IMG/VR virus record: IMGVR_UViG_3300042397_000920
Coordinates: 1 to 21,787 of that record
From: a virus
Length of the DNA stretch: 21,787 nt
Reading direction: 5' to 3' (one strand)
In this document: piece by piece, positions 341-19,478 of the stretch
Layout of the letters: each line of letters starts with the position of its first letter
Position numbering within the stretch: the stretch's first letter is position 1
Made by a program: the position numbers and the translations under genes
The notes under the pieces: generated by a model
What the model was told of the DNA's origin: nothing
Seen by the model: the letters and a program-made list of their open reading frames with translations, nothing else
The model's database searches: none

Positions 341-1945
341 ATGCTCACTCCCGTCAACATCCAGTCAAAGCCCGGAATCAAACGGGATGGCACGAAGTTC
401 GAAGGTGCGAACTACGTTGACGGTCAGTGGGTGCGATTTCAGCGCGGACTGCCAAGAAAGATCGGCGGTTATCGTCAGATCAGCAACTTCGCCAACGGCA
501 TTATTCGCCAGTTCCACACGCAGGCCCTGAACAATTTCGTCTACACCCATATGGGCTATGGCGATGGCGTTCAGACGATGACGATTGACACGCTTGGCAA
601 CGCCAGTGCGCCTACGGATCGGACGCCTGCTGGCTATGTTGGTGGCGATGATTACATGTGGTCGTTCGATGCCATGAACGATGGCGCTGGTGGTGGCTCT
701 GTCATCATCGGCGTCTCCACAGACACGGCTCTTGATATTTCGAGCGCGGTGGCCAAGCAGGTCTACATCGGCAATATCTACGGCAGCAGCCCGCTTACCG
801 AGATCTCGGGCATTACGGCCTCTGGCGGCGTCTGCGTGCTGCATCCGTATTTGTTCGTATTCGGAACCAATGGCTACGTTCAGTGGTCTGATGCCAACGA
901 TCCGACGAACTTTACGACCGGCGATGCCGGTGATGCCTTTATCGCTGCGTCCAAGGTGGTTAAGGGCCTGCCACTGCGCGGCGGTGGTCAGTCGCCAGCC
1001 GGTCTATTCTGGACGCTCGATAGCGTCATCCGGGCCAGCTACACAGGCGGCGCGGACGTATTCTCGTTCGACACGATCAGCGCGTCCTCATCGATTCTCT
1101 CGTCGAACAGCGTCATCGAGTATGACGGCATCTATTACTGGTGCGGGATTGACCGATTCCTGATGTACAACGGCGTTGTGCGTGAGGTTCCCAATGAGCT
1201 GAACATCAACTATTTTTTCGACGGTCTGAACACGGAGCAGTCGAACAAGGTCTTCGCCTACAAGGTTCCCCGTTACGGCGAGATCTGGTGGTGTTATCCG
1301 CGTGGAACAGCGACGGAATGCACGCACGCTGTAATCTATAACGTCCGGGAAAATAATTGGTACGACACAGAGCTTCCGAATGCTGGGCGCTCTGCCGGCA
1401 TTTATGCTCAGGTGTTTCACTCCCCTATCATGGCTGGTATCGATCCAGTGCCGCAAGCCGAAGGGGCGTTCCGGATAACCGAGGCCAGCGACCTGCGCAT
1501 TACAGAAGCTGGAAATCAGCGCGTCGTGGACAATGGGCCTACCCAGTATAAAATCTGGCGTCATGAAGTTGGCAGCGATGAGATCGACGGCACGTCGATC
1601 AACGCGATTGAGAGCTACTTCGAAACTGGTGACATCAGCATGCTGTTGGCAGAGAGGCCGGCCAGCACTGCGATCCGCGTTGCCATAATTGAACCTGACT
1701 TTGTGCAGTCTGGGAATATGTCGGTTCAAATTACGGGCCGCATCAACGCCCGCGCACCTGAAGTCTCCTCGGAAGTAAGGTTCTTCCCGGCTGTGGCTAA
1801 CACGCCAGAAGAACAGGTGGTATTCTTCAAGGAGCAGCGCCGTGAGCTGCGCTTTAAGTTCTCCAGCAATACGGTCGGGGGAGACTACCAGATGGGTGAA
1901 GTGATTGCTCATATCGAATCCACTGACCATCGTTATCAGTCATGA
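341..1945 (+). CDS. P22 gp10-like packaged-DNA stabilisation / head-tail protein
   Basis: This 534-aa protein has the hallmark start of a large family of podovirus structural proteins: residues ~22-43 carry GANYVDGQWVRFQRGLPRKIGG. The middle has blocks I recognise from environmental phage relatives: HPYLFVFGTNGYVQWSD, VKGLPLRGGGQSPAGLFW and SVIEYDGIYYWCGIDRFLMY. The family is generally annotated as phage stabilisation protein (P22 gp10-like) or tail hub, a beta-rich protein that plugs the portal side after packaging and links to the tail. Near residue 377 a short repeat, xRITEA(S/G)(D/N), occurs twice with a third decayed copy. AAGGA at 330-334 precedes the ATG by 6 bases. The stop overlaps the next ATG (ATGA). 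Structural assignment is fairly firm; the exact position in the virion is inferred. Confidence 0.6.
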   Translation: MLTPVNIQSKPGIKRDGTKFEGANYVDGQWVRFQRGLPRKIGGYRQISNFANGIIRQFHTQALNNFVYTHMGYGDGVQTMTIDTLGNASAPTDRTPAGYVGGDDYMWSFDAMNDGAGGGSVIIGVSTDTALDISSAVAKQVYIGNIYGSSPLTEISGITASGGVCVLHPYLFVFGTNGYVQWSDANDPTNFTTGDAGDAFIAASKVVKGLPLRGGGQSPAGLFWTLDSVIRASYTGGADVFSFDTISASSSILSSNSVIEYDGIYYWCGIDRFLMYNGVVREVPNELNINYFFDGLNTEQSNKVFAYKVPRYGEIWWCYPRGTATECTHAVIYNVRENNWYDTELPNAGRSAGIYAQVFHSPIMAGIDPVPQAEGAFRITEASDLRITEAGNQRVVDNGPTQYKIWRHEVGSDEIDGTSINAIESYFETGDISMLLAERPASTAIRVAIIEPDFVQSGNMSVQITGRINARAPEVSSEVRFFPAVANTPEEQVVFFKEQRRELRFKFSSNTVGGDYQMGEVIAHIESTDHRYQS

Positions 1946-5100: not shown

Positions 5101-6907
5101 TGTTACTGGCGCTGATGTCGTTACTGGTATTGGAAGTGGGGCTGCCGTCGATGTGATGACTCCGCCGCCGCCTGCGCCTGCTCCTGTGGAAGAGCCGCCT
5201 GCTGCGCCGCCCGCGCCGCCGCCTGTAGAAGAGCCTCCTGTGGCCATAGTTACCGGCGCTCGGCCAGAAGCCGTTGTTGGCGCTGATGTTGTTACTGGAA
5301 TTGGAAGCGGAGTTGTTGGCGACGTAGTGGCTGCGCAACCCACTCCGCCGCCGCCTGCGCCGCCGCTTGTAGAAGAATTGCCGCCTGCGCCGCCTCCGGT
5401 GGAAGAACCACCTGTGGCGACAGTTATTGGCGCTCGGCCAGAAGCTGTCACTGGCGCTGATATTATTTCTGGTATCGGAGGTGGAGTTGCTACTGATATA
5501 GTTTCCGCGCCGACGCCTGCACCGGCTCCTGTGGAGCAGCCGCCTATTGCGGAGGAAGAGCCGCCTGCGGTTGTAGTTACTGGCGCTAGGCCGGACATTG
5601 TCGCCGACGCTGTCGCTGGCATAGGTGGTATCGTTACCCCAGTTGAGATTCCGCCCTCCACGGTCGCTACTGAGCCTCCTTTCGAGCAGCCACCCGTTGC
5701 TGAAGAAGAACCCCCTATCGCGATAGTTACCGGCGCTAAGCCGGATGTCGTCGCCGATGCTGTTGCTGGCATAGGCGGTAGCGTTATTTCTGATATTGGA
5801 GGCGGAGTTGCCACCGACGTGGTGGCTGGCGACACGAGAACTGACACCCTTGAGGAAGAAGAAGAAGCGCCGATTGTGGTTACGGGACCAAGCGCTCCCC
5901 CTCTTTCTGCTCTGGATGTTACCAATGCCATAGGCGGCATCATTCCGGGCCTTATCCCGGGCACTGTCCCCGGCGCAGGAGCCTATGACCCCACAGAAAA
6001 CGTTATCATAAACACTGCGACGCCGGAGACCCCTGTGCCTGAGGTTACTGCTGGCATCGGCGGAGCTATTCCGGGCCTTGTTCCCGGCGCAGGCGTCTAT
6101 GATCCTACCGAAAATGTTATCATAAACACAGCGACGCCGGAGGCGACAGTCCCCGAGGAGCCGGGCTCTATACCTGTTATGCCACCCTTCACACCCATCC
6201 GGACTGACTTGGGCTTTACCGGGGTCCGTGACGGCGTGACGCAGCCTGAAGAAGACGGTATAGGTGTCAGGGACATCCTCGATGTCGCCAACGTAGCAAC
6301 TACCGTTCTTCCGATAGTCGGGGGTATTGTTGGTGGCGGCGGTGGTGGTGGTGGCGGGACGCTACCGCCGGACACTAGCGGCATTACATTCCGCCCCGGC
6401 ACGCTAAGGCCGACACTTCCCGGCGGTGGTATTGGTGGAGTCGGCGGCGCTGGCGGTCGCTATCCCTATACGCCAACGACGTATGGCCGCACTGGTGGAG
6501 ATCAGGAGACGGAGTATCTGTTCTTTACCCGCGATCCTGCGGCAGGGGCCGCTGCAGCGCCGGCCATAATCCCCGGTAAAAAAGAAGGCGGCGAAATCGA
6601 AGATGATATGGTAAAGCATCTCGTCGAATATCATAAGAACGGCGGCCATCATGGCCCCGGACAGGTGAAGGGCATCGGCAGCGGTCAGGAAGATAAGATC
6701 CCGGCATGGCTATCTGATGGCGAATATGTCTGGAGCGCGCAGGACGTTGCTGATCTTGGTGATGGTTCGACTGACGAAGGTGTGCGCCGCCTTGACAAAA
6801 TGCGGCGAATGGTGCGCCAGCAAGCTGGCCGTAAAGATGTAAAAAAGATTGCAAAACCCCAGAAGGGTATAGATAAAATGCTCAAAGCTGTTGGAGGACT
6901 GGCATAA
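2180..6907 (+). CDS. Giant modular repeat virion protein (1575 aa) with TonB-box-like repeats and C-terminal SDGEYV domain
   Basis: Layout: residues 1-80 hold Pro/Tyr-rich sequence with a doubled PPPVEPxY motif; ~84-511 are almost entirely Ala, Glu, Gln and Arg, a predicted long helix or coiled coil resembling TolA domain II; ~552-641 contain three 30-residue repeats; ~655-770 form a compact beta-rich segment (FEYWGGPVRVTDRNGKVLF); ~772-900 are Gly/Ala-rich and hydrophobic (LPIAAAIAAGPLGLAAQVAM, then NDPLKAALIAGISAGIM); ~915-1245 carry seven copies of an acid-Pro-VVTGARP motif in Pro-rich linkers; ~1250-1330 hold a doubled 41-residue unit; ~1385-1393 are nine glycines. The C-terminus has GKKEGGEI, GPGQVKGIGSGQEDKIP and SDGEYV (1512-1517), a module I associate with phage internal or tail proteins. 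GIG occurs 14 times along the chain. AAGGGG precedes the ATG. It could be a fibre, a needle or an ejected protein; the sequence does not decide. Confidence 0.6.
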   Translation: MFEFGSMPMFDMDYFNSPAFQQAIAAAVDQYSPPPVEPTYYAPPPVEPIYQNTAGIGNIPQYTFDDYAVVGGVGNQYIAPPTSNAQAEADAQAAAAAEAQRIAAAQAEAQRMAAEAETQRIAAAQAEAQRVAAAQAEAQRIAAAEAEAQRVAAEQAAAAAEAQRVAAAQAAAAQAEAQRVAAAQAAAAAEAQRVAEAQAAAERAAAEQAAAAEAAFQRQQTELNQRREAAARAAAERAAQERALAEQAAAQAAIEAQIAAQAQAEAAAQAEAQRVAAAQAQAEAAAQAQAAEQARIQAEAQRVAAEQAEAQRLAAQQAEAQRAAEAQAEAQRVAAAQAEAQRVAAAQAEAQRAAAAQAEAQRVAEAQRLAEQQAEAQRVAEAQRIDAERAEAQRIVAEQEVFAREEAERVALANAQALEAAAQRTQNEAIAARAEQARIAAERATAEREAAEQARIQAEAAAQEQARIQAEAVAQEQARVQAEAAAQEQARIQAEAVAQEQARVQAEAAAAVTPEPEIFRGIGRNVDENLYVPEVQVPEQIYTPEPPANIPAVESVEPLPVEAAPVAGIGSPVVAEPAYRGAVESVEPLPVEAGPIAGIGSPVVAEPVYRAAVESVEPMPAEVVPVAGIGSPSVAEPAAAPTATEAPAPLTYEEREARRIATNTPPSGVFVAAPTDNRGSATGFNIAGQGTNVFEYWGGPVRVTDRNGKVLFSGEGAEGAVAAARFAQNLSDTKGKNASWDIQQGERTINPDGSVGEMRWISGPSDAKEGMGTLGSLAAFLLPIAAAIAAGPLGLAAQVAMGAAAGGVGAVLSGNDPLKAALIAGISAGIMNVSGANQAISGTLNSILGPAATQAANEAVNQAAAEVTEQILVNGASQAVQAAASAAGNTLLSGGIRTALGLTSTSPPPLDQPPVEEPSIVVTSTRPEAVTGADVVAGIGGGAAADAVAGDVGSDTIQEEEPPVATVTGARPEAVTGADVVTGIGSGAAVDVMTPPPPAPAPVEEPPAAPPAPPPVEEPPVAIVTGARPEAVVGADVVTGIGSGVVGDVVAAQPTPPPPAPPLVEELPPAPPPVEEPPVATVIGARPEAVTGADIISGIGGGVATDIVSAPTPAPAPVEQPPIAEEEPPAVVVTGARPDIVADAVAGIGGIVTPVEIPPSTVATEPPFEQPPVAEEEPPIAIVTGAKPDVVADAVAGIGGSVISDIGGGVATDVVAGDTRTDTLEEEEEAPIVVTGPSAPPLSALDVTNAIGGIIPGLIPGTVPGAGAYDPTENVIINTATPETPVPEVTAGIGGAIPGLVPGAGVYDPTENVIINTATPEATVPEEPGSIPVMPPFTPIRTDLGFTGVRDGVTQPEEDGIGVRDILDVANVATTVLPIVGGIVGGGGGGGGGTLPPDTSGITFRPGTLRPTLPGGGIGGVGGAGGRYPYTPTTYGRTGGDQETEYLFFTRDPAAGAAAAPAIIPGKKEGGEIEDDMVKHLVEYHKNGGHHGPGQVKGIGSGQEDKIPAWLSDGEYVWSAQDVADLGDGSTDEGVRRLDKMRRMVRQQAGRKDVKKIAKPQKGIDKMLKAVGGLA
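2429..3712 (+). repeat. Ala/Glu/Gln/Arg helical repeat tract; last 180 bases are five 36-bp units
   Basis: Within the giant gene this tract encodes degenerate tandem copies of AEAQRVAAAQ and related 10-12 residue units. At 3533-3712 there are five consecutive 12-residue units of the form EQAR(I/V)QAEA(A/V)A(Q/A), one every 36 bases. Synonymous codons differ between copies (for example GAGCAGGCC, GAGCAGGCG, GAGCAAGCG), so the amino-acid pattern is kept while the DNA has diverged. That points to old repeats under protein-level selection rather than a recent slippage burst. Confidence 0.8.
3833..4102 (+). repeat. Three tandem 90-bp units encoding a 30-residue repeat
   Basis: Units start at 3833, 3923 and 4013. 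Each encodes AVESVEP(L/M)P(V/A)E, then (V/I)AGIGSP(V/S)VAEP, with the first two nearly identical in protein and the third decaying into an Ala/Pro-rich linker. They contribute three of the protein's 14 GIG tripeptides. Codon usage differs between copies. Confidence 0.85.
4922..5887 (+). repeat. Seven spaced repeats of an acid-Pro-VVTGARP (TonB-box-like) motif
   Basis: Core motifs begin at residues 920 (IVVTSTRPEA), 964 (VATVTGARPEA), 1021 (VAIVTGARPEA), 1079 (VATVIGARPEA), 1130 (AVVVTGARPD), 1180 (IAIVTGAKPD) and 1232 (IVVTGPSAP) of the giant protein. Each is preceded by a run of Glu residues and Pro. The first six are followed by a Val/Ala/Gly-rich GADVVxGIGxG-like stretch and the seventh by a shorter variant, LDVTNAIGG. 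Spacing between the conserved Thr positions is 45-58 residues, filled by Pro/Ala/Glu linkers. TonB-dependent receptors start their plug with a TonB box such as BtuB's DTLVVTANR or the common EIVVTGxR of alphaproteobacteria; the resemblance is visible, the function is not shown. Confidence 0.75.
5927..6157 (+). repeat. Two-copy repeat with YDPTENVIINTATPE
   Basis: Two adjacent units begin at 5927 and 6050. Each reads (A/G)IGG(I/A)IPGL(I/V)PG, then GAG(A/V)YDPTENVII, then NTATPE. The most conserved blocks lie at 5972-6028 and 6086-6142, where 18 of 19 residues are identical. The second copy lacks four residues of the Pro-Gly linker. Confidence 0.8.
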
Positions 6908-7836
6908 TGGCTGTCACACAAACCGTCACAGAGACCAAGCTGCCTCAATGGCTTGTTGATGCCTATACGAAGAGCATCGAGCGCGGCTATGAAGCCACTA
7001 CCGGTGACTATCAGCCTTATACTGCCGGCCCGCGTATTGCTGGATTCTCCCCGCAGGAGCAGCAGGCTTATCAGATGGTCTCCGCGAACGTCGGAAACTA
7101 TAAGCCGTACCTGCAAGCTGCTGGCAATTACATTGCAGGCGGCACGCAATCGTTCACCGATCCGGGCGTCGCGTCTAGGTTTATGAATCCATATACCCAG
7201 AACGTGGTCGCTGGGATTGGGGCGGCAGCTGGCCGCAACCTTTATGAGAATCTGCTGCCTCAGGTGAACCGCACATTCGTTGGCGGTGGCACGTTTGGTG
7301 GAAGCCGGAGCGCTGAGTTTACAGCCCGTGCCGTTCGCGATGCAAATGCTGCAGCTCTCTCGGCCCAGAACGAAGCTCTCCAGAAGGGCTACACTACCGG
7401 CATGGAGCAGTTCAACACTGAGGCCGGTCGCTACCTCACGGCAGCCGAGCAGGCGCAGGGCCTTGGTCGTGACGTTCAGAGCATGGCAGGCACGGACACG
7501 GCGGCGCTTGAGGCTGCTGGAGCAGCGCAGCGCGGGATGGATCAGAGGTCGCTTGATTTGCTGCGGGAAGATTTCGAAGCGCAGCGCGATTATGATTACA
7601 ATCAAGCACGTCGATTCGCGGAGTTTGTAGGAACGCCGAGCGCAGGCGGGTCAGGCACTATTTATAGGCAGGAGCCCGGTGTAAACAGAACAGCTTCGAC
7701 ACTCGGCGCTATTGCCACCGGGATTGGTGCGCTAGGTAACATCTTCGGCAAGAAGGACGGCGGCCCAATTACCGCCGATGGCAAGCGCAACATCAAGCAT
7801 CCGATGCACGGGCTTGGATGGCTGAAGGATAAATAA
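6907..7836 (+). CDS. Internal virion / DNA-ejection type protein, 309 aa
   Basis: The ATG overlaps the giant gene's stop (TAATG). The protein has an N-terminal aromatic region (GFSPQEQQAYQMV), then MNPYTQNVV, and a central GGGTFGGSRSAEFTARAVRD. The motif set of MNPYxQNVV plus (T/G)FGGSR is one I know from a common environmental podovirus protein located just before large ejection proteins. The middle third is Ala/Gln/Glu-rich helix (residues ~130-240). A Gly-rich hydrophobic stretch (ASTLGAIATGIGALGNIFG) precedes a C-terminus with GKKDGGPI, echoing GKKEGGEI in the giant protein. By position it may play the part of a T7 gp14-like, membrane-seeking ejection protein; that is inference. No catalytic motif is visible. 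Confidence 0.55.
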   Translation: MAVTQTVTETKLPQWLVDAYTKSIERGYEATTGDYQPYTAGPRIAGFSPQEQQAYQMVSANVGNYKPYLQAAGNYIAGGTQSFTDPGVASRFMNPYTQNVVAGIGAAAGRNLYENLLPQVNRTFVGGGTFGGSRSAEFTARAVRDANAAALSAQNEALQKGYTTGMEQFNTEAGRYLTAAEQAQGLGRDVQSMAGTDTAALEAAGAAQRGMDQRSLDLLREDFEAQRDYDYNQARRFAEFVGTPSAGGSGTIYRQEPGVNRTASTLGAIATGIGALGNIFGKKDGGPITADGKRNIKHPMHGLGWLKDK

Positions 7837-7837
7837 G

Positions 7838-9361
7838 ATGGTGATGACACCCCAGCAAGCACGAACGGCTGCAATGCGACTGCGGGCTCGGAAGCCAGAA
7901 CTGCAGAGCGTTCCTGTCGATGATTTGATCGCCCAGATTATGGCGTCCGAAGGGGCGGCGACTCCGGGCGCTGGTGTTGGCGGACTCGCGAACCTGTTCC
8001 CGACTAGGCTGTCGCCGGCTTCTCCAGCCCCCATGCAGCCAGCTAGACTCGAAGCTCCTAAGCCGACCGCGATGATAGTCCCGAATGCGGCTCGATCTGG
8101 TCCCGCAATACCAGTAGGCGCAGCCCAGAGATCCGCGAACCCGCCGCTTGCAGACTGGCAAAAAGAACATCTCGCCAGAATGGAAGCTGGCTTGGCAATG
8201 CCGGAGGGGCAGGCAGCGCCTGTGGCGGTCGCTGAAGCTGCGCCTCCGGCAGTCGCTGAAGCTCCGGCAAAGCCGAAGGGTTCGTCGCGCTTTAGGATAA
8301 TGCTTGAGCAGAAAGAGGCTGAGCTTGAGCAGCTTAAGGCGTCTGTGCCACGGACTGGTGAAATTCCGCCTGAATTAACCATTGGCTTGGACGTCTTGTC
8401 CAGAGAGGTAACTCAACTCAAAGGCTTGGTGGCAGCGGAGGAAGGCGCGTCTGTCGATCCTGAACGCACAGCTATATTGGAGCGTCAGACCAAGCGCCTT
8501 GGCCGCGAAGAAGAGCTGGTCGAGCAGGCACGCAAACGCGCTCCGTTCGATGCGCTGATCGCAGGTGGCGCTGCTCTTGCAGGTGCAAGGCCCGGCGAGA
8601 GTTTTGCCTCTGCCTTGGCTCGTGGTCTACAGGCTGGGTCTCAAACCTACAGAGGCGCTCTCGATGCGCGTGAGGCGTCTCTGCGTAACATCGAAGAGCG
8701 TCGGGATGCGTTTGCTCTGCAGAATATCGATGCGGTTCAGAAGGCTCGTGATGAAGCGATTGCTCTTCAAAATGCTGGCCTTGCGATGACTGAGCAGCAA
8801 ATGAGACTGGCGGGCATGACGAGAGAGGATGCCGAAAGTTTGGCTCTTGCTCCATTTAGGAAAAGGGCTGCTGAAGCGCAGACAAAAATAGCTGAGACTG
8901 AGGCTTTGTATGCGCCGAGTCAGGCCGAGGCTAATCTGGAATCTACAGCGGCTCTTACTGCTTTCAGGCGTAGGCCGCCGGTTGCTCGGGGTGGAAGTTC
9001 TGGCCCTAAGGACATGACGGACAATCAGCGCCGGACAAAAATTGGTAATCTTCGAAGAGAGCGTCGCGCTTTGACGATTGATCTTAGCGATCGCACGGTA
9101 CTGGGCTCTCAAAAAGAGGCCATTAAGCTGGCGATAAGAAATATAGACGAAGAACTTTCAGAGCTTGGTGCCGGAAATGCGGCTCCAGCCGCGCCGTTCG
9201 GTCCGGTGAAGCAGCCTTCGGCCAAGGCTGCCCCCGCTAAAGCTAATCGGGGCAAGCCACCTGTCGCGGGCGCGAAATGGTCTGATTCTCCAACACCCGG
9301 CTGGTTTATTAAAGATCCCCAAAGGCCGGGAAAGTATCTGCAAGTTTTTAATAAAGGGTGA
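7838..9361 (+). CDS. Internal virion / ejection type protein, helical, 507 aa
   Basis: It begins one base after the preceding stop; an in-frame ATG two codons downstream (7844) is an alternative start. Residues ~5-40 form a helical head (TPQQARTAAMRLRARKPELQ), followed by a Pro/Ala-rich linker to ~150. Long helices follow (~150-340), including GAALAGARPGESFASALARG, a segment typical of environmental phage virion proteins next to ejection genes. A basic segment (~395-430, RRTKIGNLRRERR) and a Pro/Ala/Lys linker lead to a C-terminal WSDSPTPGWFIKD, then RPGKYLQVF. It shows no enzyme motif. Placement between the 309-aa and 1519-aa proteins suggests a scaffold or translocation-tube component comparable in role to T7 gp15; this is inferred from order only. 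Confidence 0.55.
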   Translation: MVMTPQQARTAAMRLRARKPELQSVPVDDLIAQIMASEGAATPGAGVGGLANLFPTRLSPASPAPMQPARLEAPKPTAMIVPNAARSGPAIPVGAAQRSANPPLADWQKEHLARMEAGLAMPEGQAAPVAVAEAAPPAVAEAPAKPKGSSRFRIMLEQKEAELEQLKASVPRTGEIPPELTIGLDVLSREVTQLKGLVAAEEGASVDPERTAILERQTKRLGREEELVEQARKRAPFDALIAGGAALAGARPGESFASALARGLQAGSQTYRGALDAREASLRNIEERRDAFALQNIDAVQKARDEAIALQNAGLAMTEQQMRLAGMTREDAESLALAPFRKRAAEAQTKIAETEALYAPSQAEANLESTAALTAFRRRPPVARGGSSGPKDMTDNQRRTKIGNLRRERRALTIDLSDRTVLGSQKEAIKLAIRNIDEELSELGAGNAAPAAPFGPVKQPSAKAAPAKANRGKPPVAGAKWSDSPTPGWFIKDPQRPGKYLQVFNKG

Positions 9362-9364
9362 TTA

Positions 9365-12300
9365 ATGCCCACTTATAAACCGGTTGACTTTGATCCATTC
9401 GCTCCTGCAGCGCCTTCTGGCAACGTCAGGACGAAACCTGTTGACTTTGATCCATTTGCAAAGCCCAAGCCGAAAAAGAAAAAAGAGGAGGAGCCGTTTT
9501 ACAGCGGGGTCATTCCTGTCCTCAAGCGCTCGTTCGGGCAAATTCTTACGGAAACCGGAAGGACGCTGGAGCAAATCTCCCCTTACCTTCCTCGCGGCCT
9601 TGTCAGTTCAAGCAGTTTGTTGCTGACCGGCAAACCCAGTGGCAGTGACTTTCTGGTAAAAGGTCTTGAGCGGGCTGGCACTTCTACGCGGAAGGCTGGC
9701 GAAAGAATTAGAGCTAAGGCTGAAGCAGAAAGACCTGCGGCAAGCATTGCGGAAGATGTCCGGCAAGCGAAATTTATCCGAGATACAACGCCCGGTACAG
9801 TATCTCAAGTCGTTTCCGGGGTTAGCCGTGGCCTAGCTATGCTACCGTCGTTCACTAATTACGATATTGGCGGCTTGTCACGCAATCTTCTACCGCAGAC
9901 CCCGCAAGAAGCGGCCCGTGAGTTAGCAGCAGTCCAGTCTAAATTCCAAACTGGGCGAGGCGCAATTGAGTTTGGTGCGGGCCAAGTCTTACCCACCCTG
10001 ATCCCTCTTGGCGGCGGCAAAATCGTACAGCTTGGTGGCCGCGCAGTACTGCCGCGCTTAGGTGTTGAGGTTTCTGAGGCGGCCCTTAACAAGGGGGTCC
10101 GCCGGGGCGTTGTCGCCACTGGCGCCGGAATGAATGCGGCAAGCGCTGGCAACCAAGCCTATGAAGATGTAATCGCCGCAGGCGGAAGTGAAGAAGAAGC
10201 TGACCGCGCATTCAAGACGGCGTTTGCTATTGCTTCGGCTGCATCCGGCGCTGCTTCGAGAATGCCCGGCGTTGAGCAATTGGTATTTGCCGACAAGCCA
10301 GTGCGAGGCGGGATTCTCCGCTCGGCTGGTCGCGCAGCTATTGGTGAGGCCCCGCAGGAATTTGTCGAAGAAGCCGGGACTCAGTTAGCGACGAACGTCG
10401 GCAAGCTCGGAACAGCAGCAGAGACGCCTGTCGGCGAAGATGTTCTGTCTTCCGGTCTTCTTGGTGCAATCGGTGGCGCGACAATCGCAGCCCCCATCGG
10501 CGGCCTTCAGGGTGCTTTTAACAGAGGTGCGCCTGAAGAAGGCGGCGCTCCACCAGCGCCAAGCGCGCCGCGCGCGCCGCGCACACCGCCACCGCCGGCA
10601 GACATGGCCGCTCTTGCCCAAGCCCTTGGTCCAGTGGGCGGCAAGATCACTCTGCAGGAACCGTCCGGGCCACAGGAATATACCTACCAAGGCTTCGACG
10701 AAGATGGCGGCGTCATTCTCGCAGACGCTGACGGCATAGTCTTCTCTGAAGATCCTGATCAGGTTCAGGCCGCGATCAAGGCTGGCGTTGTCGAGCCGGA
10801 AAGCGGTTTGGGCGGCATGGCCTTTGGCATGGATATTACTGAGGGACTGGATGAGGTGTTCGCACCGCCCCCGCCGCCTCCGCCTGCTACGCCTTTGCCT
10901 CCGCCTGCTGCACCTACTGTGCCCGTTACTCCGCTGCCCGCCGCCGCGCCGCCCGCTGCGCCCGTAGCGCCTACGCCTCTGCCTAGCGCACGGACAGCCG
11001 TGCTTGATAATGCCCGCGAAACCGTTAAAATTTTGCAGCAACGCAATCCTAATGCGTTGGATCTCGTGACGGACCTGCACGCCCAAGACTTTAGCGCCGC
11101 AGAAGTGGCGGATGCTACCGGCCTTAACATTGACACCGTTCGCGACGTTCGCTTGGGTCTTGGACTGCCCGATCAAGGTAAGGGCACCGCAGGAATAACA
11201 GGTGCGGGCGCGCCTGCAGACGCGCAGGAGCGTGCTGTATTCGAAGCATGGCGCGACAATTATAACCAGACAAAACAAGCTGCCGAGCCTGCCGCCCCGC
11301 CACCGCCGCCTGCTGCGCAGAGCGCTCGAAGGTGGCTCGAAGATCAGGATTTATCGGATTACACCCCTCGGCAGATCGCAGAAAATATAACCGCGTTTTC
11401 GAACGGCGAGGCCCGGCGTCGTGGGTATGAAAGCGGTACTGATGCGTATCGCATGTTCGTTGAAGGTGTAAGGGACACGAAGGCTGGCTTCGACCCTCTG
11501 CCAGACGATACGCTCCTCCAGATCGGCGGACAGGAAGTTCTTACGGCATATAAGGAAGCTCGACAGTGGGCGGCGGAAACCATCGCGGCTGCTGAGCCTG
11601 CGCAGCCTGAGCCTGCCCCTGAGCCCGTCATCGCCCCGCCTGCACCACCACGCGCTATAGGCAGGACCGCCCGCGCCACCACCCCGGCAAAGCGCGAGAA
11701 GGTCGATGTGCAGTATGAGCTGCAGGATTTGGACAATATCCGGTTTGCCGAGGGTGAGCTTCAGAACCGCGACCGCAGCCGACCGCAGACGCAGCAGTTC
11801 CTGCGTCGGTTCACCAGTGAGTTTGACCCAGAGGGTCTGGGCGAACACCCGGAAACGGATCGCGGCGCGCCAATAATCAACAAGGATAATGTTATCCTTA
11901 GCGGCAACGGTCGCACGCTGGGCCTTGAGGAAATTTACGAAAAGTATCCTGAGCAGGCCGAGGCTTACCGTGAGTTCCTGCGTGAGCAAGGCTACGACAT
12001 CGAGGGCATAGAGCGTCCAATTCTGGTGCGCCGTCTTATGTCTGACGTTGATGAGCGCAAGTTTGTTGTCGGCTCGAACGAGCCCGACGTAGCCGCGCTG
12101 TCCCCTCCAGAGCAGGCAGCGCAGGACGCAAAGGACATCCTGACCCCCGGAGTGTTATCGAAATACAAGGGTGGCGATTTAAACGCGGCACGAAACGACG
12201 CCTTTGTTTCGGCCTTTATTGCCGAGATGAGTCCGCAACAGCGTGAAAACGCAATGGATGACAAGGGTAATGTCAGCGCTCAGGCCCTGAAGCGGATTGA

Positions 12301-13924
12301 GAATGCGCTGCTCTACAAGGCTTATGGCGGCACTGGCCGTGCGTCTGATATATTTATCAGCAAGGCGATGGAGCGCACGGACGACGACACCAAGACGCTG
12401 ACTAACTCTTTGGTCGATGTGGCAAACGACTGGATCAAGTTCCAGCAGGCCATTAAGGATGGTGAGGTTGATAAGAAATACGACATCACCAACAAGCTGA
12501 TGGAATCAGTCGGCAAGGTATCGGACATCAAGGCCAGCGGGAACAGCGTGTCAGGTGAGCTTCGCAGCCCCGACATGGTTGAGCCAATGGATGAGTTCGT
12601 GAAGGACATCCTGATCGGCTTCCACGACGATAAGATCTCCCGCATTCTCAGCAAGAAGGCCATCGCCGAAAAACTGCGGGCCTATACTGAGATCGCCGCC
12701 AATCAGCAGGCTGAGCCTGACATGTTTGGGAAGGCAGAGACGCCATCTGCTCGTGAGATTTGGAATCGCGCCGCTGCGGGCGAGGGTGCCTCAGAGGCCG
12801 TCATGTTCTCCAGAGCTGAGAAGTCTTCGCAGGCGACAGCGAAAAGGCTGCGCAGCGGCATTGCGGCAGTGGCAGCCATAACCACGCCACCGGCAAGCGC
12901 GGCTGTTAACGACACCCCGATTGCGCCGAACAGCGCGCTCTATAAATCGCTTGAAAGCGGCGATACAAAGCAGGCCATCGCGCTAATCCAGAAGAGCAGC
13001 AAGGACAAGGAAGCGCGAAAGATTGCCGCCATCCTTGCTGAGAACGGCGTTGGTGAGCAGAAGACCGTGATCCTTGATCCGACCAAGGACTACAACAAAA
13101 CGGTAGAGACGCTCACAAAGAACGGGGCTACTGAGGACTCTATCTATCGTGTGACTACCGGCGATGTTCGCGGGCTGGTTTTCTCAACGCCGAGAGATAA
13201 GGGTATCTATCTCATCAAGAACAAAGACCGGGAATCCAACGGCGTCAATGAGCAGACGTTCTTGCATGAAACAATTCATGCTTACGTAAAGGCGCGCTGG
13301 TCTAGCATTGGAGTTTACACAGAGCGTAATCGCGCAGCCCTGCAAGAGCGCGGCCTATTTAACAAGGAGGTCGCGGCAGAGGTTCAGAAATTTAATGACA
13401 TGTGGGACAAGTTTTCCGACATTGTTATGAAGGAATACGATGGTGGCGCGGAGGTTCCCACCACCGTTATAAGCGCAGCAGAGTCGCCCAATGAGGCTCT
13501 TGCCTATATCCTGACCAACAAGGGCGTTCAGGACTACGCCAAGCGTATTGCAAAGGATGGTGACGGCTATCGCCTGATGAGCGAGGAAGAGGCCGGCAAG
13601 CGCTCTTGGTGGGATGATTTTGTGGACATGATCCGCAAGATATTTGGCTATGATAGGAGCGACCAGTTCTTCCAAGACTTCCTTGCTGCAGGCAACAGGA
13701 TACTGGTCGTTGGTGAAAAGGCAGAGACCGACTTCCGTGTGGCCGCGATAAACGAAGAGTCGGTTTCACCTCAGAAGGTAAACAATAACAGGCAGGCCAT
13801 GCAGGCCCTGCTGAACGGCACGCCTGACCAGATGCGGAATGCGGTTGCAAAAGCGCAGAGACCCTTCGATAAGAGCAATGAAGAAGCTGCGGACGTACAG
13901 AGTAAAAACAGAGGGTGTGACTGA
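9365..13924 (+). CDS. Polyvalent ejection protein: ddrB-type ParB-like domain plus HETIH metallopeptidase (1519 aa)
   Basis: AAGGG lies 7 bases before the ATG, and the gene starts 3 bases after the previous stop. Residues 5-33 hold two copies of KPVDFDPFA, then a Lys/Glu-rich stretch. Residues ~200-385 are helical, hydrophobic and Gly-rich with EAPQEFVEE (328-336). Pro-rich linkers (~392-412, ~497-545, ~638, ~742-760) separate small domains, one HTH-like (575-602). A ParB-superfamily domain of the ddrB type spans ~780-1120: VDVQYELQDLDNI, NRDRSRPQTQ, GAPIINKDNVILSGNGRTLG (GNGRT 847-851) and RPILVRRLMSDVD. A C-terminal zincin-like domain (~1225-1450) carries HETIH (1301-1305) and a downstream ESPNEALAY (1373-1381) that may supply the third ligand. 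This architecture matches polyvalent proteins such as P1 DarB relatives, which enter the cell with phage DNA. Its stop overlaps the next start (TGATG). Confidence 0.8.
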   Translation: MPTYKPVDFDPFAPAAPSGNVRTKPVDFDPFAKPKPKKKKEEEPFYSGVIPVLKRSFGQILTETGRTLEQISPYLPRGLVSSSSLLLTGKPSGSDFLVKGLERAGTSTRKAGERIRAKAEAERPAASIAEDVRQAKFIRDTTPGTVSQVVSGVSRGLAMLPSFTNYDIGGLSRNLLPQTPQEAARELAAVQSKFQTGRGAIEFGAGQVLPTLIPLGGGKIVQLGGRAVLPRLGVEVSEAALNKGVRRGVVATGAGMNAASAGNQAYEDVIAAGGSEEEADRAFKTAFAIASAASGAASRMPGVEQLVFADKPVRGGILRSAGRAAIGEAPQEFVEEAGTQLATNVGKLGTAAETPVGEDVLSSGLLGAIGGATIAAPIGGLQGAFNRGAPEEGGAPPAPSAPRAPRTPPPPADMAALAQALGPVGGKITLQEPSGPQEYTYQGFDEDGGVILADADGIVFSEDPDQVQAAIKAGVVEPESGLGGMAFGMDITEGLDEVFAPPPPPPPATPLPPPAAPTVPVTPLPAAAPPAAPVAPTPLPSARTAVLDNARETVKILQQRNPNALDLVTDLHAQDFSAAEVADATGLNIDTVRDVRLGLGLPDQGKGTAGITGAGAPADAQERAVFEAWRDNYNQTKQAAEPAAPPPPPAAQSARRWLEDQDLSDYTPRQIAENITAFSNGEARRRGYESGTDAYRMFVEGVRDTKAGFDPLPDDTLLQIGGQEVLTAYKEARQWAAETIAAAEPAQPEPAPEPVIAPPAPPRAIGRTARATTPAKREKVDVQYELQDLDNIRFAEGELQNRDRSRPQTQQFLRRFTSEFDPEGLGEHPETDRGAPIINKDNVILSGNGRTLGLEEIYEKYPEQAEAYREFLREQGYDIEGIERPILVRRLMSDVDERKFVVGSNEPDVAALSPPEQAAQDAKDILTPGVLSKYKGGDLNAARNDAFVSAFIAEMSPQQRENAMDDKGNVSAQALKRIENALLYKAYGGTGRASDIFISKAMERTDDDTKTLTNSLVDVANDWIKFQQAIKDGEVDKKYDITNKLMESVGKVSDIKASGNSVSGELRSPDMVEPMDEFVKDILIGFHDDKISRILSKKAIAEKLRAYTEIAANQQAEPDMFGKAETPSAREIWNRAAAGEGASEAVMFSRAEKSSQATAKRLRSGIAAVAAITTPPASAAVNDTPIAPNSALYKSLESGDTKQAIALIQKSSKDKEARKIAAILAENGVGEQKTVILDPTKDYNKTVETLTKNGATEDSIYRVTTGDVRGLVFSTPRDKGIYLIKNKDRESNGVNEQTFLHETIHAYVKARWSSIGVYTERNRAALQERGLFNKEVAAEVQKFNDMWDKFSDIVMKEYDGGAEVPTTVISAAESPNEALAYILTNKGVQDYAKRIAKDGDGYRLMSEEEAGKRSWWDDFVDMIRKIFGYDRSDQFFQDFLAAGNRILVVGEKAETDFRVAAINEESVSPQKVNNNRQAMQALLNGTPDQMRNAVAKAQRPFDKSNEEAADVQSKNRGCD
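9383..9456 (+). repeat. 17-bp direct repeat encoding VDFDPF at the N-terminus of the polyvalent protein
   Basis: GTTGACTTTGATCCATT occurs at 9383-9399 and 9440-9456, exactly 57 bases (19 codons) apart and in frame, so KPVDFDPFA appears twice. Flanking codons differ. The motif is short, acidic and aromatic and sits in a disordered-looking N-terminus, which suits a docking tag. Confidence 0.7.
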
Positions 13925-16900
13925 TGATAGGATCTAACTGCTCCCTTGATCTGGCAGAGGTCGCTCTAAATAATCCGCCAGCGCCACCAAAGTCTTTTGA
14001 TCCAATCGAGAACATCGCATCCGTTGTGTCATATGTTCGCCCGGCGACTGCCGTTGCCCGGAAAAGCAGGTACTTTGCGCGCCTGCACAAGGCGACGAAC
14101 GACAAGGTCAAGATGACCAGCCTTCTCATGTCGGACTATGAGGATTTGCTGCATGAGATGAACGAGCTTCCGCAGGAATCGAAGGACAGGCTCAACGCGG
14201 TCTTCGAGTATCTTCGTTTGTCCAAGACCGCCGTCCGCGATACCGGGCGCAACTTTGCCCTGAAGACTCGTGAGCTTCGCCGCGAAGGCGCTGACGGCAT
14301 CGAGCGGCGCTTTGCTCCTGAGCTTTCGAAGCCCGGCCAAACACTAAAGCTAAACGCTAATGAAACCCGCATACTTCACGAGGCGCGGGAGTATCTTGAA
14401 AGCCGCTACACGCTAAACGCCAAGTCTCAGTTGTCTGTCCTTGGCTATGATGGTGAGTACAGCCGCAAGGCTATAGAGGAAGGAGTTGAGGACGACGGGT
14501 TCCGCGACGATCTTCTGCGCCTGTTTGATGCCATCGAGTCGCAGCGTCTGACATCCTACATCCCGTTCATGCGCTCAGGCGATACGAAAGTCATTGTCTA
14601 TGGTCCCGATGGGACATTGGACAGCGGCGCTTTCTACATGATCGACAGCCTGCAATGGCTGCGGGATCTGGTTGGCAAGGGGATTGCGATGACTATCCCC
14701 GATCCCAGCAAAAAGAGGATCGCCGAGATCAAGGCAAAGTACCCGGAGAGCGAGGGCTATAGGGTAATCACAGACTCACGCGACATTCCCAATCCACAGG
14801 ACCGGCTGTCTATCGAAGACCTTCCTAATCTCGACAAGCTGTTAAGCCTGATGGATGCCAGATCCGGCGGCATTATCAAGGATTACTACGACCGGACGAT
14901 GGGTGGGATGTTCTCTGAGAGCAATCTTGGTGAGCTAACAGAAAATAACACCAAGATGATCGCCAAGGGGATCATTGCAGATCTTCCTAAGAGCGTGCGC
15001 TCTGTTCTGATGCAAGACCTCGCCGCTGGATTCATGAAGCAATCTCGCGACATTGCGGGCTATGATACGAACTTCACGGATCGGCTGCTTGATTACAATC
15101 GGATTGTGGCAACAACGGTTGCGCACCGGATGTACCGCAAGGAATATGCAGAGGCGTATGATGACCTTCAGCGTAATGTTAATAAATCTGAAAGGGAGTA
15201 TGCCAAGGAGTGGGACCAGTACGTCGACACCCCTGAGGGGTACATAGCGCGTGGGCTTAAAACAATTGGCTTTTTCAACTCCATGTGGGCAAGCGTGGCG
15301 TCATCATCGGTCAACGCCATGTCCGTCTGGACAGTCACCGCCCAGCAGATGACGGTTATGAAGGGCTCTGCCGGCCTTGATACTTACAAAATGGCAGTTC
15401 AGGTTATGGCTGGATTCCGTGGCAAGGTTGGCTATGGAATGCACGTCGATCCAAACGCGATCCCGGGTCTGACAGACGAAGAGCGAGATGCCCTTGTCCT
15501 TGCAAACAAGCGTGGGACTGTCCGGGCCCAGATGAACCCAGAGCTTATGGGCATTGATAGCTACGGCGCTATGAGTGACAAAGGGTCTGGGCTCAAGAAA
15601 ACAGCCAAGCGCTATTTCCAATACGGCTCCAGCGTCATCTCGGTCACGGAAGAGATGAACAAGGCAGCTGCGTTTATCGTGGCATATCGCTATGCCAAAG
15701 ATCCGAAGGCTCTGAAGAACTGGAAGGAAGCCTACGGCAAAAACGAACGCGCCAAGATCATCATCAAGGAGGGCTCGAATCCCTACGACGTTGCTGAATT
15801 CATGGTCGAGACGGCGACGTTCATGGGCGGTCAGATCGAGAAGCCGCCTATTATGCGTGGCGCTGGCGGCGTAATCCTGCAGTTCTCCCAATACCCTCTG
15901 CAGATTATGTTCCTGTTGGCTGAAAATCTGCGCTCTCAGGGTCCGCGTGGCAAAGTGGCCGCCATGTTTACCTTGATGATAATGTGGACTGTCTCTGGCC
16001 TGCTGTATGCAATTCCGTTTGGCGACGATGCGGTCAACTTCTTCCAGTGGATTTACAACATGAACAGCGAGGGAGCCAAGAAAGACTTCCGCACCGAGGC
16101 GCAGCTGATGCTGGCCGAGATGTTCGGCAATGGTGAGGCTGGACGCCGGGATGCAGAGATGCTCCTTCGCGGACCTTCGAGAGAGCTGCTTGGGCTAAAC
16201 TTCGGTGAGCGTGTTGGCTTCACGACACTTATACCTGAATTTGAAAGTGGGATTGCTATTGCTCCAGCCATATCGACGACCGTTTCTAAGTTCCAAGAAT
16301 ACCTTCAGCGTCGCTCGTCTGGCGTGCAGCCTGTAGCAGCTAATGTGGCGCTTGTGTCCCCCTTCATCGGCAAGGGGCCAACTGATCTCCTGAAGGGATT
16401 CGTGCAGTACCCACTGGAAGGATATAGGACTCGCTACGGTTCGCTCGTAATTGCGCCGGAGGATATGGGCTTTGTATCTGAGCAACTCCCACGCGCCACA
16501 GGATTTCAGTCAGCTAAAATTGCACGCGAGATGCAGGCGAGGCAGGCTGGAAAGATGATCACAGAATCAACGCGAAACGCAGAGCGCAAGAATACGCTGA
16601 TACTGGGTAAACTTCTGGCAGATGCGATCAAGGCCGAGGATGCCGGAGACAATGCCAAGGCAGAAAAGATCCTCGCTCAATTTGACAAAGAGATGCAGCT
16701 GGTAGCCGACAAGTATGAAAAAGAAATCAATGCGGGGAACTTTGATGGAGCCGTCAAACCGCCGACAGAGCAGACGCTAAAGAATGCCATGATGGCAGAA
16801 CTGTATCCGGGCATGAAGCTGGATAGGGTCGGCAATCTGAAGCGTGAGGCTTACATCGATGCCTACCGGACAATATTGGTAGATGAAGAGGAAGGCGACC

Positions 16901-16974
16901 TCATACCGGAGGAAGAGGAAGAAGAGTTTGTGGCAGAAGAGGAAGGCGACATTGAAGCCGCCTTCCCCGAATAA
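13924..16974 (+). CDS. Large polyvalent-associated protein, PLxRFG/LPD38-like (1016 aa)
   Basis: Translation is probably coupled to the polyvalent gene by a TGATG overlap; the local ribosome site (GAGGG) is weak. The protein is mainly helical. Residues ~210-226 (TSYIPFMRSGDTKVIVY) fit a degenerate PLxRFG motif (PFMRSG, 214-219), the signature of giant phage virion proteins of that name. Around 653-701, QFSQYPLQIMFLLAENLRS is followed by a hydrophobic helix (AAMFTLMIMWTVSGLLYAIP), matching the shape of large polyvalent protein-associated domain 38. The final ~30 residues are strongly acidic with a doubled EEEGD (DNA 16885-16899 and 16936-16950). In many phages these modules share one polypeptide with ParB/peptidase domains; here they are a separate gene. 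A membrane-contacting or translocation role in ejection is inferred. No nuclease or polymerase motif is seen. Confidence 0.6.
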   Translation: MIGSNCSLDLAEVALNNPPAPPKSFDPIENIASVVSYVRPATAVARKSRYFARLHKATNDKVKMTSLLMSDYEDLLHEMNELPQESKDRLNAVFEYLRLSKTAVRDTGRNFALKTRELRREGADGIERRFAPELSKPGQTLKLNANETRILHEAREYLESRYTLNAKSQLSVLGYDGEYSRKAIEEGVEDDGFRDDLLRLFDAIESQRLTSYIPFMRSGDTKVIVYGPDGTLDSGAFYMIDSLQWLRDLVGKGIAMTIPDPSKKRIAEIKAKYPESEGYRVITDSRDIPNPQDRLSIEDLPNLDKLLSLMDARSGGIIKDYYDRTMGGMFSESNLGELTENNTKMIAKGIIADLPKSVRSVLMQDLAAGFMKQSRDIAGYDTNFTDRLLDYNRIVATTVAHRMYRKEYAEAYDDLQRNVNKSEREYAKEWDQYVDTPEGYIARGLKTIGFFNSMWASVASSSVNAMSVWTVTAQQMTVMKGSAGLDTYKMAVQVMAGFRGKVGYGMHVDPNAIPGLTDEERDALVLANKRGTVRAQMNPELMGIDSYGAMSDKGSGLKKTAKRYFQYGSSVISVTEEMNKAAAFIVAYRYAKDPKALKNWKEAYGKNERAKIIIKEGSNPYDVAEFMVETATFMGGQIEKPPIMRGAGGVILQFSQYPLQIMFLLAENLRSQGPRGKVAAMFTLMIMWTVSGLLYAIPFGDDAVNFFQWIYNMNSEGAKKDFRTEAQLMLAEMFGNGEAGRRDAEMLLRGPSRELLGLNFGERVGFTTLIPEFESGIAIAPAISTTVSKFQEYLQRRSSGVQPVAANVALVSPFIGKGPTDLLKGFVQYPLEGYRTRYGSLVIAPEDMGFVSEQLPRATGFQSAKIAREMQARQAGKMITESTRNAERKNTLILGKLLADAIKAEDAGDNAKAEKILAQFDKEMQLVADKYEKEINAGNFDGAVKPPTEQTLKNAMMAELYPGMKLDRVGNLKREAYIDAYRTILVDEEEGDLIPEEEEEEFVAEEEGDIEAAFPE

Positions 16975-16975
16975 C

Positions 16976-17272
16976 TCAGAACGGCACGTCATCCCCATCG
17001 AGATCATGAGCCGGGCGCTGATAGGCGTTTGCCTTAGCCGCTGAGTGCTGCTGCTGGCCGCCGTTATCCTTCGGCTCATAGAGCGAGACGATGATGCTCT
17101 CACGGCCTTCGTTGCCGCCGACACCAGCTGGATTGAACGTGCGGTCGAGCAGGATGTAGGGGCCCTTGTCCCCTTCCATCATGACGCCGACGTTCTTGAA
17201 CCGGCCCTTGGTCTGGCCTTGGCTGTCTGTGTATTCGCCAACCTTGACGACGAGATCATACTTTTTACCCAT
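16976..17272 (-). CDS. ssb: SSB-like single-stranded DNA-binding protein, 98 aa
   Basis: The last gene of the leftward operon. It starts with an OB-fold-like beta pattern (KYDLVVKVGEYTD, GRFKNVGVMMEG, GPYILLDRTFNPAG, ESIIVSLYEP), then a Gln/Asn/Pro-rich flexible linker, and ends exactly in DGDDVPF. That tail is the classic SSB C-terminal acidic peptide (DDDIPF in E. coli), through which SSB recruits host repair and replication proteins. I know phage relatives with the same MxKxYxLxVKxGEYT start and a terminal DIPF. The ribosome site AGGAG overlaps the RecT stop codon, so the two are coupled. The likely role is to coat ssDNA for RecT annealing and replication. The OB-fold reading is inference from pattern; the tail is direct. 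Confidence 0.7.
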   Translation of the reverse strand: MGKKYDLVVKVGEYTDSQGQTKGRFKNVGVMMEGDKGPYILLDRTFNPAGVGGNEGRESIIVSLYEPKDNGGQQQHSAAKANAYQRPAHDLDGDDVPF

Positions 17273-17282
17273 TTATTTTCTC

Positions 17283-18320
17283 CTACTTGAAAAACTTCAT
17301 CAACTTGGTGGTGTTGCGCGGGGCCATCAGCTCTGCCTCTTCGAGCATCCCTTCGTGCAGCCCGCGCCATGCTTCGCGTTCGCCTTCGGACAGGCCGGCA
17401 ACGATCTCGCACGCTGCGTTCGCCCAGCTATCCCAATCGGTCATGCCTTCCTCGTCTTCGCCCGGCTCCAGCACATCGATGTGAAGCGGCGTCTTAGGCG
17501 CAGTCTTGGCGACAATCTTTTCCTCAAGGGTCTGCACCTGAGCTTCTGCCACAGGAACGTCGTCGAAGTCGGTGATGTCCATTTCGTCGCCGCTATATTC
17601 ATCAGCCTCGATGACACCCTCTGCGTAATTGTCGACCATCACTGCGCGCTGCGCCTCAGTGGACAAGGGCATATACTTGCTTGCCCGGCGGACCACAGTC
17701 TTGCGCCACATCTCAGCCTCATCGGTCTTCCAAGGGCCGACGATAACGCCGTCCTTGGTCTTGGATGATGAGCGGTTCCGGATCGAGAGGATCTCTTCCT
17801 TGCTCATGATCTCGAACTGCGTCTCGCCGTTCTTCAGCTTCCACACGCAGTATGCGCCGACCTTCTCACCGCGATCCGACAGGCCGTGCTTGTGAATGAT
17901 GCGCGACTCGATGCCTTCCTCGACCTCGAATACATCTCTCTCGTACACGAGACGGCTCTCGATCTTCAGGACTTCACCGGACTGCAGCGCCAGCTTCATC
18001 AGTCCCTTATAGCGTGGGCGGAACTGGGCGACGTTGCGCTTCAGACGGCCATCCCAGACCTTGAGGATGTCAGCCTCGGCCATGCTCTTATTAAGCGACA
18101 GGCCAAGCTCTGCGGCGCTCAGGCACGCCTTCAGCAGTGATGCGCGGTCACAGTCCAGCAAGTCCATGTTGTCAGCGACGGCTGCCACCACGATGGCTTG
18201 GAACTTATCGACCGTCATGGCCTGCGGGAGAAGACTGCGGAGATGCCCTTCGCGCATCGCCAGCTCCTGCTTGAACCGATCCATCGGCTTTGCAGGAACG
18301 ATGTCATTACCTGTTGTCAT
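17283..18320 (-). CDS. recT: RecT-family single-strand annealing protein
   Basis: 345 residues; the RecT core spans ~10-235. Visible family signatures are SLLKACLSAAELGLSLN (61-77), VAQFRPRYKGLMKLAL (97-112), AYCVWKLKNG (156-165) and PWKTDEAEMWRKTVVRRASK (196-215). RecT anneals complementary ssDNA and works with a partner 5'-3' exonuclease, here the YqaJ-type gene upstream. The chain is longer than E. coli RecT (269 aa) because of a C-terminal extension (~236-345): an acidic stretch with DITDFDDVPV (248-257), then a Trp-containing helical module (TDWDSWANAACEIVAGLSE). The start ATG lies 14 bases inside the preceding small gene, with GAGGAA upstream. Confidence in the family is high; the role of the extension is unknown. 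Confidence 0.92.
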   Translation of the reverse strand: MTTGNDIVPAKPMDRFKQELAMREGHLRSLLPQAMTVDKFQAIVVAAVADNMDLLDCDRASLLKACLSAAELGLSLNKSMAEADILKVWDGRLKRNVAQFRPRYKGLMKLALQSGEVLKIESRLVYERDVFEVEEGIESRIIHKHGLSDRGEKVGAYCVWKLKNGETQFEIMSKEEILSIRNRSSSKTKDGVIVGPWKTDEAEMWRKTVVRRASKYMPLSTEAQRAVMVDNYAEGVIEADEYSGDEMDITDFDDVPVAEAQVQTLEEKIVAKTAPKTPLHIDVLEPGEDEEGMTDWDSWANAACEIVAGLSEGEREAWRGLHEGMLEEAELMAPRNTTKLMKFFK

Positions 18321-18471
18321 TCTTCATTTCCTCTTCAAGATCTTCAATCATCAACTCAATGGCACGCTCGACGGTGGCTCGAAGCGTAGGCTTCAGGGGA
18401 TGCTTGGCCGCGACTGAGCGCAGCCTTGCCAACAGATTCCTGTCCACCCGCATCATAACAATATCTTTCAT
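18307..18471 (-). CDS. Ribbon-helix-helix-like small protein, 54 aa, between exonuclease and RecT
   Basis: The frame begins with ATG at 18471-18469, sharing one base with the exonuclease stop (TGATG), and ends with TAA at 18307-18309, overlapping the RecT start by 14 bases. The product reads MKDIVMMRVDRNLLARLRSV, then AAKHPLKPTLRATVERAIEL and MIEDLEEEMKNDNR. The pattern of an N-terminal beta strand (IVMMRVD), a first helix (RNLLARLRSVAAKH), a loop with Thr and Arg, and a second helix (ATVERAIELMIEDLEEE) is that of an Arc/MetJ-type ribbon-helix-helix protein. These bind DNA as dimers and often repress their own operon. The tight overlaps on both sides support it as a real gene. DNA targets are unknown; a site near 19441-19461 is one candidate. 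Confidence 0.75.
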   Translation of the reverse strand: MKDIVMMRVDRNLLARLRSVAAKHPLKPTLRATVERAIELMIEDLEEEMKNDNR

Positions 18472-19406: not shown

Positions 19407-19423
19407 TTATATTCTCCGGTTAT

Positions 19424-19441
19424 GGCCGTATCCAGTCGGCC
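19424..19441 (-). other. 5'-leader hairpin upstream of the exonuclease gene
   Basis: GGCCG (19424-19428) and CGGCC (19437-19441) form a perfect 5-bp stem with an 8-base loop. On the transcribed strand it falls just downstream of the promoter-like site and 6 bases before the GGAG ribosome site. It would form at or near the mRNA 5' end. It could stabilise the transcript or modulate ribosome access. Confidence 0.4.
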
Positions 19442-19448
19442 TACACAT

Positions 19449-19478
19449 GGCATACAAGTGTCTACGGAGTTATGTCAA
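19449..19478 (-). promoter_or_regulatory. Sigma70-like promoter candidate for exonuclease-RHH-recT-ssb
   Basis: On the minus strand a perfect TTGACA (19478-19473) is followed after 18 bases by TATGCC (19454-19449), a moderate -10 match. It overlaps the end of the VRR-NUC gene and would start transcription near 19441, about 35 bases before the exonuclease ATG. ACAC (19443-19446) and GTGT (19458-19461) flank the -10 as a small dyad that could be an operator. Only sequence pattern supports this. Confidence 0.4.

Follow-up and report, generated by a model that had tools for sequence, protein, structure and literature searches.

P0001 is a polyvalent-type protein encoded on the plus strand of the virus record IMGVR_UViG_3300042397_000920. 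The window, meaning the whole 21.8-kb (21,787-nucleotide) stretch analysed, is a record from a public collection and is probably a fragment. Polyvalent proteins, their DdrB-ParB domain and their mosaicism were described by Iyer et al. 2017 (PMC5512222), who give as many as 50 domain combinations for Helicobacter prophages. P0001 combines at least two biochemically unrelated domains in one chain and its gene lies beside virion genes. It shares with the class, in the sections of that paper that describe it, several unrelated domains per chain, a zincin peptidase, DdrB-ParB, a late-gene context and domain mosaicism. Its features are as follows, with model confidence given as predicted local distance difference test score (pLDDT).

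9365..13924, plus strand: P0001, polyvalent-type protein, 1519 amino acids
9380..9403, plus strand: first copy of the tag PVDFDPFA, residues 6–13
9437..9460, plus strand: second copy of PVDFDPFA, residues 25–32, predicted to be disordered (pLDDT ~42)
9509..10519, plus strand: helical region, residues 49–385, a low-confidence helical model, divergent among relatives
10565..10894, plus strand: constant small alpha/beta module, residues 401–510 (core 412–475), pLDDT ~86, among the most conserved columns of alignment A4
10925..11629, plus strand: exchangeable middle cassette, residues 521–755, without DNA similarity to the relative L002 at 10911–11647
11654..12757, plus strand: ddrB-type ParB unit, residues 764–1131 (Pfam core 776–891)
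11903..11917, plus strand: GNGRT, residues 847–851, with G-N-G-R nearly invariant in alignment A3
12835..13765, plus strand: exchangeable zincin cassette, its limits being the swap points against the relative L017
13265..13279, plus strand: HETIH, residues 1301–1305, the sole HExxH of P0001
13493..13495, plus strand: E1377, candidate third zinc ligand from the alignment
13808..13921, plus strand: constant C-terminal tail of 38 residues (15 sequences compared)

P0001 is a cassette protein, with a framework, a ParB unit and a 38-residue tail that are kept and an N-terminus, a middle part and a zincin that are swapped. Its relatives, 20 from a first scan and further ones from a second, were compared after removal of the duplicates L010 and L019. 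Residues 401–510, 761–1130 and 1481–1519 recur in them, and residues 1–40, 521–760 and 1150–1480 change. The window and L017 are 91% identical in nucleotides at 12260–12834 and 96.7% at 13766–21618, with unalignable DNA, the zincin, between. The DNA match to L002 and L001 resumes at 11648 and 11625 respectively, past the exchanged middle cassette. The ParB unit itself is found in near and far versions, L018 and L003 being mostly 22–55% identical to the window. Compared with polyvalent proteins as a class, the cassette limits here are visible at the DNA level between near-identical phages. In so clean an exchange the delivery frame would stay fixed while the effector locus evolves behind it. 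Fourfold sites of the C-terminal tail are more conserved than those of the next gene (0.66 versus 0.53), and because the tail precedes the start codon of that gene its conservation may be partly at the level of DNA.

The original prediction, made from the sequence of the locus, also proposed several small domains separated by proline-rich linkers. Such linkers are present in P0001, and the parts between them act as exchangeable modules. Most of these segments received no domain name. The single sequence of P0001 gave nothing useful against PDB (one match at E 0.44), and a Foldseek search of PDB with its model gave nothing below E 1e-3, ParB chains being top-ranked. Structural matches of the N-terminal model (mean pLDDT 51) were to generic helical bundles and were set aside as not informative.

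By sequence, the identity of the ddrB-ParB domain is certain. PF18763 matches residues 776–891 at E 2.7e-29, and with 102.2 bits against a gathering cut-off of 27.6 the match is not due to chance. The same family matches 18 of 19 relatives, and a model of residues 764–1519 predicts a ParB/Srx fold with a conserved pocket arginine, residues of the unit falling on ParB CTPase structures (Z 8.7 for 6sdk_B and 7bnk_A; 92 residues at 2.4 A for 6sdk_B). The ddrB-type ParB-like domain with GNGRT at residues 847–851 is thus as originally predicted.

The same ParB-type unit is found in DdrB of phage P1 (tblastn, 29% over residues 798–1122), although the similarity ends outside this unit and P1 is a different type of phage. 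P1 DdrB is a virion protein, for which Iyer et al. proposed a C-terminal peptidase (PMC5512222). It is non-essential. A table in PMC9024508 has the entry 'Aids DarB addition to capsid' for it; a ddrB-ParB domain alone therefore does not imply an effector. P0001 might likewise mainly aid the entry of other proteins into the head, or form part of an ejection channel, with its zincin processing virion proteins in maturation. Autoproteolysis of DdrB before packaging, as suggested by Iyer et al. (PMC5512222), would agree with this, as would the constancy of the ParB unit and tail in the P0001 family. Among close relatives, however, the zincin is variously of a distant type, present twice or missing, a pattern that suits a shifting target more than an invariable maturation step, and we regard such a helper role as unlikely. 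The partners DarA, Hdf and DarB were not found among the window proteins scanned, the window being a 21.8-kb fragment.

The zincin is recognised by a profile of the ParB and zincin parts, whose zincin stretch aligns to PDB chain 9sfn_G, an 'Internal virion protein' (E 9.1e-6), the HEAVH of the chain and a later Glu being in register. For one relative, the zincin by itself also finds this chain (E 7.6e-5). P0001 and the chain share a homologous stretch with HExxH, only ~170 residues of 1337 being matched. E1377 aligns with the Glu of 9sfn and with that of the Z3-type relatives, which have HESVH and DEF at the positions of HETIH and E1377, and the HExxH is accompanied by a downstream Glu in the next conserved helix. 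The metallopeptidase-like HETIH domain of the original prediction is in this way supported by HETIH at 1301 together with E1377, and a lack of any profile match to the ddrB-ParB or zincin families, on which that prediction would fall, is not what was found. Among the 18 sequences, window included, whose C-terminal part is readable, 16 have an HExxH and fall into at least three zincin types; L009 and L014 have two zincins in tandem. The best fold match, to the virion RNA polymerase of N4 (Z 5.9, chain residues 2379–2596; model pLDDT ~46–88), was not counted, because the aligned stretch falls outside the N4 subdomain with HExxH, at residues 2124–2375 (PMC12633501). One relative (L016:6479-12148) has a GHKL/topoisomerase-like ATPase stretch between the ParB unit and a HELAH motif.

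The N-terminal tandem tag is the most unusual feature of P0001 and was absent from the original prediction. N-terminal types were counted in 23 P0001-family loci, excluding the duplicates L010, L019 and L023. Two are truncated, and the 21 with a readable N-terminus comprise ANYR (8), PVDFDPFA, hereafter FDPF (4), PITV, which is FPDG-like (4), PVVF (2), ADLK (2) and a tandem FDLKSA (1). The last is the start of the family open reading frame (ORF) of L026, where a tandem FDLKSAKP/FDLKSARP replaces the other tags.

A search with the tag of the window found 23 loci, and those outside the family bear it at the start of unrelated ORFs. Some patterns of this search include the initial Met, so an unbiased DNA-code scan for PVD[FY]DPFA was added; it found 92 stretches, against 2 for the reversed residue order. 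Statistics were taken on the best 80 of the 92, the remaining 12 being inspected only; L152, one of the latter, has a C-terminal copy of the motif. For both tags of this study, positions were counted in ORFs of at least 200 amino acids, and N-terminal means no more than 60 codons from the upstream stop. PVD[FY]DPFA is N-terminal in 59 of 75 such ORFs (7.4 expected if uniform) and, when each family is represented by a single ORF, in 26 of 32 (3.1 expected). The bodies of the carriers, minus the tag, form 34 single-linkage families. Two strict copies are found in 45 of 54 non-redundant carriers, and at least two copies in 48 of 54 by a looser pattern, with a median spacing of 19 residues. In an alignment of 52 of the 54 carriers (L077 and L110 were left out for size) consensus is confined to the tag; the profile of tag alignment A2 gave weak unrelated matches only against PDB.

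Among named phages, tblastn with short native tags gave one weak match and two blanks, and composite tag queries gave seven records and one record. Within the seven, both rows of RHph_N38 (E ~10) lie in an early small ORF and are probably chance matches. The cultured Pseudanabaena phage Pam5 carries a tandem FDPF tag from residue 1 of Pam5_13, directly after a tail lysozyme gene. A histidine-phosphatase-like short ORF (L108:10658-11380) has an N-terminal PVDYDPFA and a C-terminal VAHDPFA.

A second tag, FPDG, was scanned as [IVM]xFPDGTP[DE] and found in 53 stretches; L164 and L195 were excluded from its alignment, A5. It is N-terminal in 35 of 39 ORFs (4.05 expected). Profile scans of 27 FPDG proteins identified internal virion, ejection, transglycosylase and ddrB-ParB types among them, and in Pelagibacter phage HTVC025P 'internal virion protein D' begins in an FPDG-like way. 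The two tags were not found together in any carrier (0 of 65 and 0 of 37). By our own reading of the comparison, 6 of the 34 FDPF families have a body to which that of an FPDG carrier is similar at E < 1e-5. The FPDG-tagged L201 is 42% identical to the FDPF-tagged L088 over 451 amino acids, in a match that begins just past the tag, and EVC08_011 of the cultured Rhizobium phage RHph_N65 (FPDG) is ~31% identical over ~640 amino acids to L125 and L146 (FDPF), again from just past the tag. The FPDG-tagged phiM5_31 of the temperate Sinorhizobium phage phiM5, a protein whose record notes 'detected in phage particle proteome', is ~30% identical over 464 amino acids to the FDPF-tagged L074. It is also 33% identical to gp062 of Caulobacter phage GB2A, which has neither tag.

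In phage P1, the 30 N-terminal residues of DarB direct a reporter into the capsid, and the authors of that work found no consensus common to the Dar proteins (PMC9024508). The P1 DarB signal is experimental and belongs to one protein; the tags described here, unlike it, are common to many families and often tandem. From the DarB precedent and the particle record of phiM5_31 we infer that the FDPF and FPDG tags may be interchangeable virion-loading tags.

The FDPF-tagged proteins carry diverse domains. Among the 52 carriers, Pfam finds LPD38 in three, AAA_34, ART-PolyVal and RadC in two each, and Helicase_C_4, InPase, ddrB-ParB, Tox-ART-HYD1, His phosphatase, DUF7178, Zeta toxin, ResIII, UPF0020 and N6_Mtase in one each. 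PHROGs gives DarB-like antirestriction (11), virion RNA polymerase (8), endolysin (7) and others. The 11 antirestriction matches would suit an anti-restriction role in the narrow sense, in line with the original prediction, in which the ParB unit and zincin shield entering DNA, as would the link of P1 Ulx, DarB and DdrB to the EcoB/EcoK response (PMC12810830). P0001 itself has no methylase or helicase domain in the Pfam scan, however, and the polyvalent class has many other targets in the account of PMC5512222, and we hold this narrow function to be improbable.

We consider it probable that P0001 serves as polyvalent cargo of a short-tailed phage, loaded by its tag and injected with the DNA, with swappable effector cassettes. 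The disordered N-terminal tandem PVDFDPFA tag would get it packed alongside the other ejection proteins, and the constant helical and alpha/beta framework, perhaps with the 38-residue tail and the product of the next gene, P0007, would see it through the tail together with the DNA. Inside the cell, the ParB unit, judged by its fold, would depend on a nucleotide or on DNA for its action, and the zincin, judged by its motif, would cleave a protein, either P0001 itself, freeing parts, or a host target. The cassettes are swapped among related phages, and the purpose may be to change the effector load and keep the delivery parts. Chances are about even that short-tailed phages have a loading code made of a few interchangeable peptides at protein ends, among them tandem PVDFDPFA, APDGxxVxFPDGTP and further ones of the P0001 family, by which any protein with such a peptide is packed and injected, effectors swapping behind a constant address.

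Several observations weigh against P0001 as a tag-loaded cargo protein. The HETIH region has no match to any Pfam or NCBIfam model, and the zincin is dispensable, since L011 and L018 lack any HExxH in a readable C-terminal part. The particle-proteome record belongs to an FPDG carrier, and none to an FDPF-tagged protein or to this virus. The likeness to capsid targeting sequences of the P1 DarB and T4 IPIII type, also short N-terminal stretches, is drawn from position and sharing. The motif is not N-terminal in 6 of 32 families (L104, L114, L130, L131, L137 and L148), and C-terminal copies are found in small lysozyme-like ORFs and one terminase-like ORF. In a comparison of tag type with neighbour genes no single gene tracked the tag and no clear receptor candidate emerged.

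The tags may not be loading signals; their action could come during assembly or once the protein has entered the cell, such as docking to a host protein, a prohead-protease site or a contact with the membrane or tail channel. The existence of C-terminal and interdomain copies would suit this, as would the want of a virion receptor in neighbour-gene co-variation. Set against it are the terminal position and disorder of the tags, their presence in internal virion, lytic and ejection proteins alike, and their interchange with the second tag, which is carried by phiM5_31, a protein detected in particles; we think a function other than loading fairly unlikely. In the permutation of tag against neighbour, weak signals were also seen in the helicase and RecT, and none in P0004 or P0005; a large single-linkage neighbour cluster (32 loci) was not used, as it mixes portal-like and Q/A-rich proteins. 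The small lysozyme-like ORFs (L085, L086, L099, L112 and L135) have the motif 7–12 residues before the C-terminus. The internal motif of L148 sits in a portal-like ORF and is probably due to chance. L120, a 523-residue ORF that is large-terminase-like by eye, has PVDYDPFA 6 residues before its C-terminus; if this copy is real, the portal could be the tag receptor.

The polyvalent class, DdrB-ParB and mosaicism are already described; what appears new here is the cassette swap together with the proposed tag code. No mention of a shared N-terminal tag was found in the available part of PMC5512222, and no paper on a shared tag or the tag strings was found in the open full-text literature, which omits most subscription papers. 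The wider question is how phages select large proteins for packaging and injection, with P1 DarB and T4 IPIII as examples (PMC9024508). A tag readable from sequence across ~30 unrelated families would allow injected effectors (toxins, anti-defence enzymes, pyrophosphatases) to be predicted, and would give a direct test of loading and a handle for phage protein delivery.

P0001 is the penultimate gene of an ejection-type block. The late block on the plus strand reads P0002, a 78-residue protein, the Ala-rich P0004 (1575 residues), P0005, P0006, P0001 and P0007; RecT, a YqaJ exonuclease and a helicase are on the opposite strand. The neighbours with a type or place assigned are as follows.

341..1945, plus strand: P0002, nozzle/stabilisation-type virion protein (phrog_3287; PDB 'nozzle' chains)
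6907..7836, plus strand: P0005, DNA ejection protein type (phrog_4287, E 1.7e-15)
7838..9361, plus strand: P0006, upstream neighbour of P0001 in the ejection block
13924..16974, plus strand: P0007, PLxRFG/LPD38-type partner of P0001 (NCBIfam tail-700, E 1.2e-25, below cut-off)

Genes gp067–gp063 of Caulobacter phage GB2A have the same order, and the next, gp062, 'lytic tail protein', occupies the slot of P0001; P0002 is 48.7% identical to a GB2A virion protein. The order is preserved in nearly all family loci of sufficient reach. The T7 gp16-like ejection position proposed for P0001 thus stands as regards its slot in the ejection block, but P0001 has no gp16 profile match in Pfam, PHROGs and NCBIfam scans and the likeness is one of slot alone. 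P0007 has no match among named phages or in PDB; LPD38 matches one of 19 P0001-family proteins, and the P0001 and P0007 region is one continuous ORF in L004, L024, L025 and L027. P0004 (window 2180–6907) is tape-measure-like and longer here, at 1575 residues, than the full-looking copies of relatives (566–1335). The same gene block is present in L036 (JAIXXE010000028.1), a contig of an Alphaproteobacteria metagenome-assembled genome, which hints at the host group.
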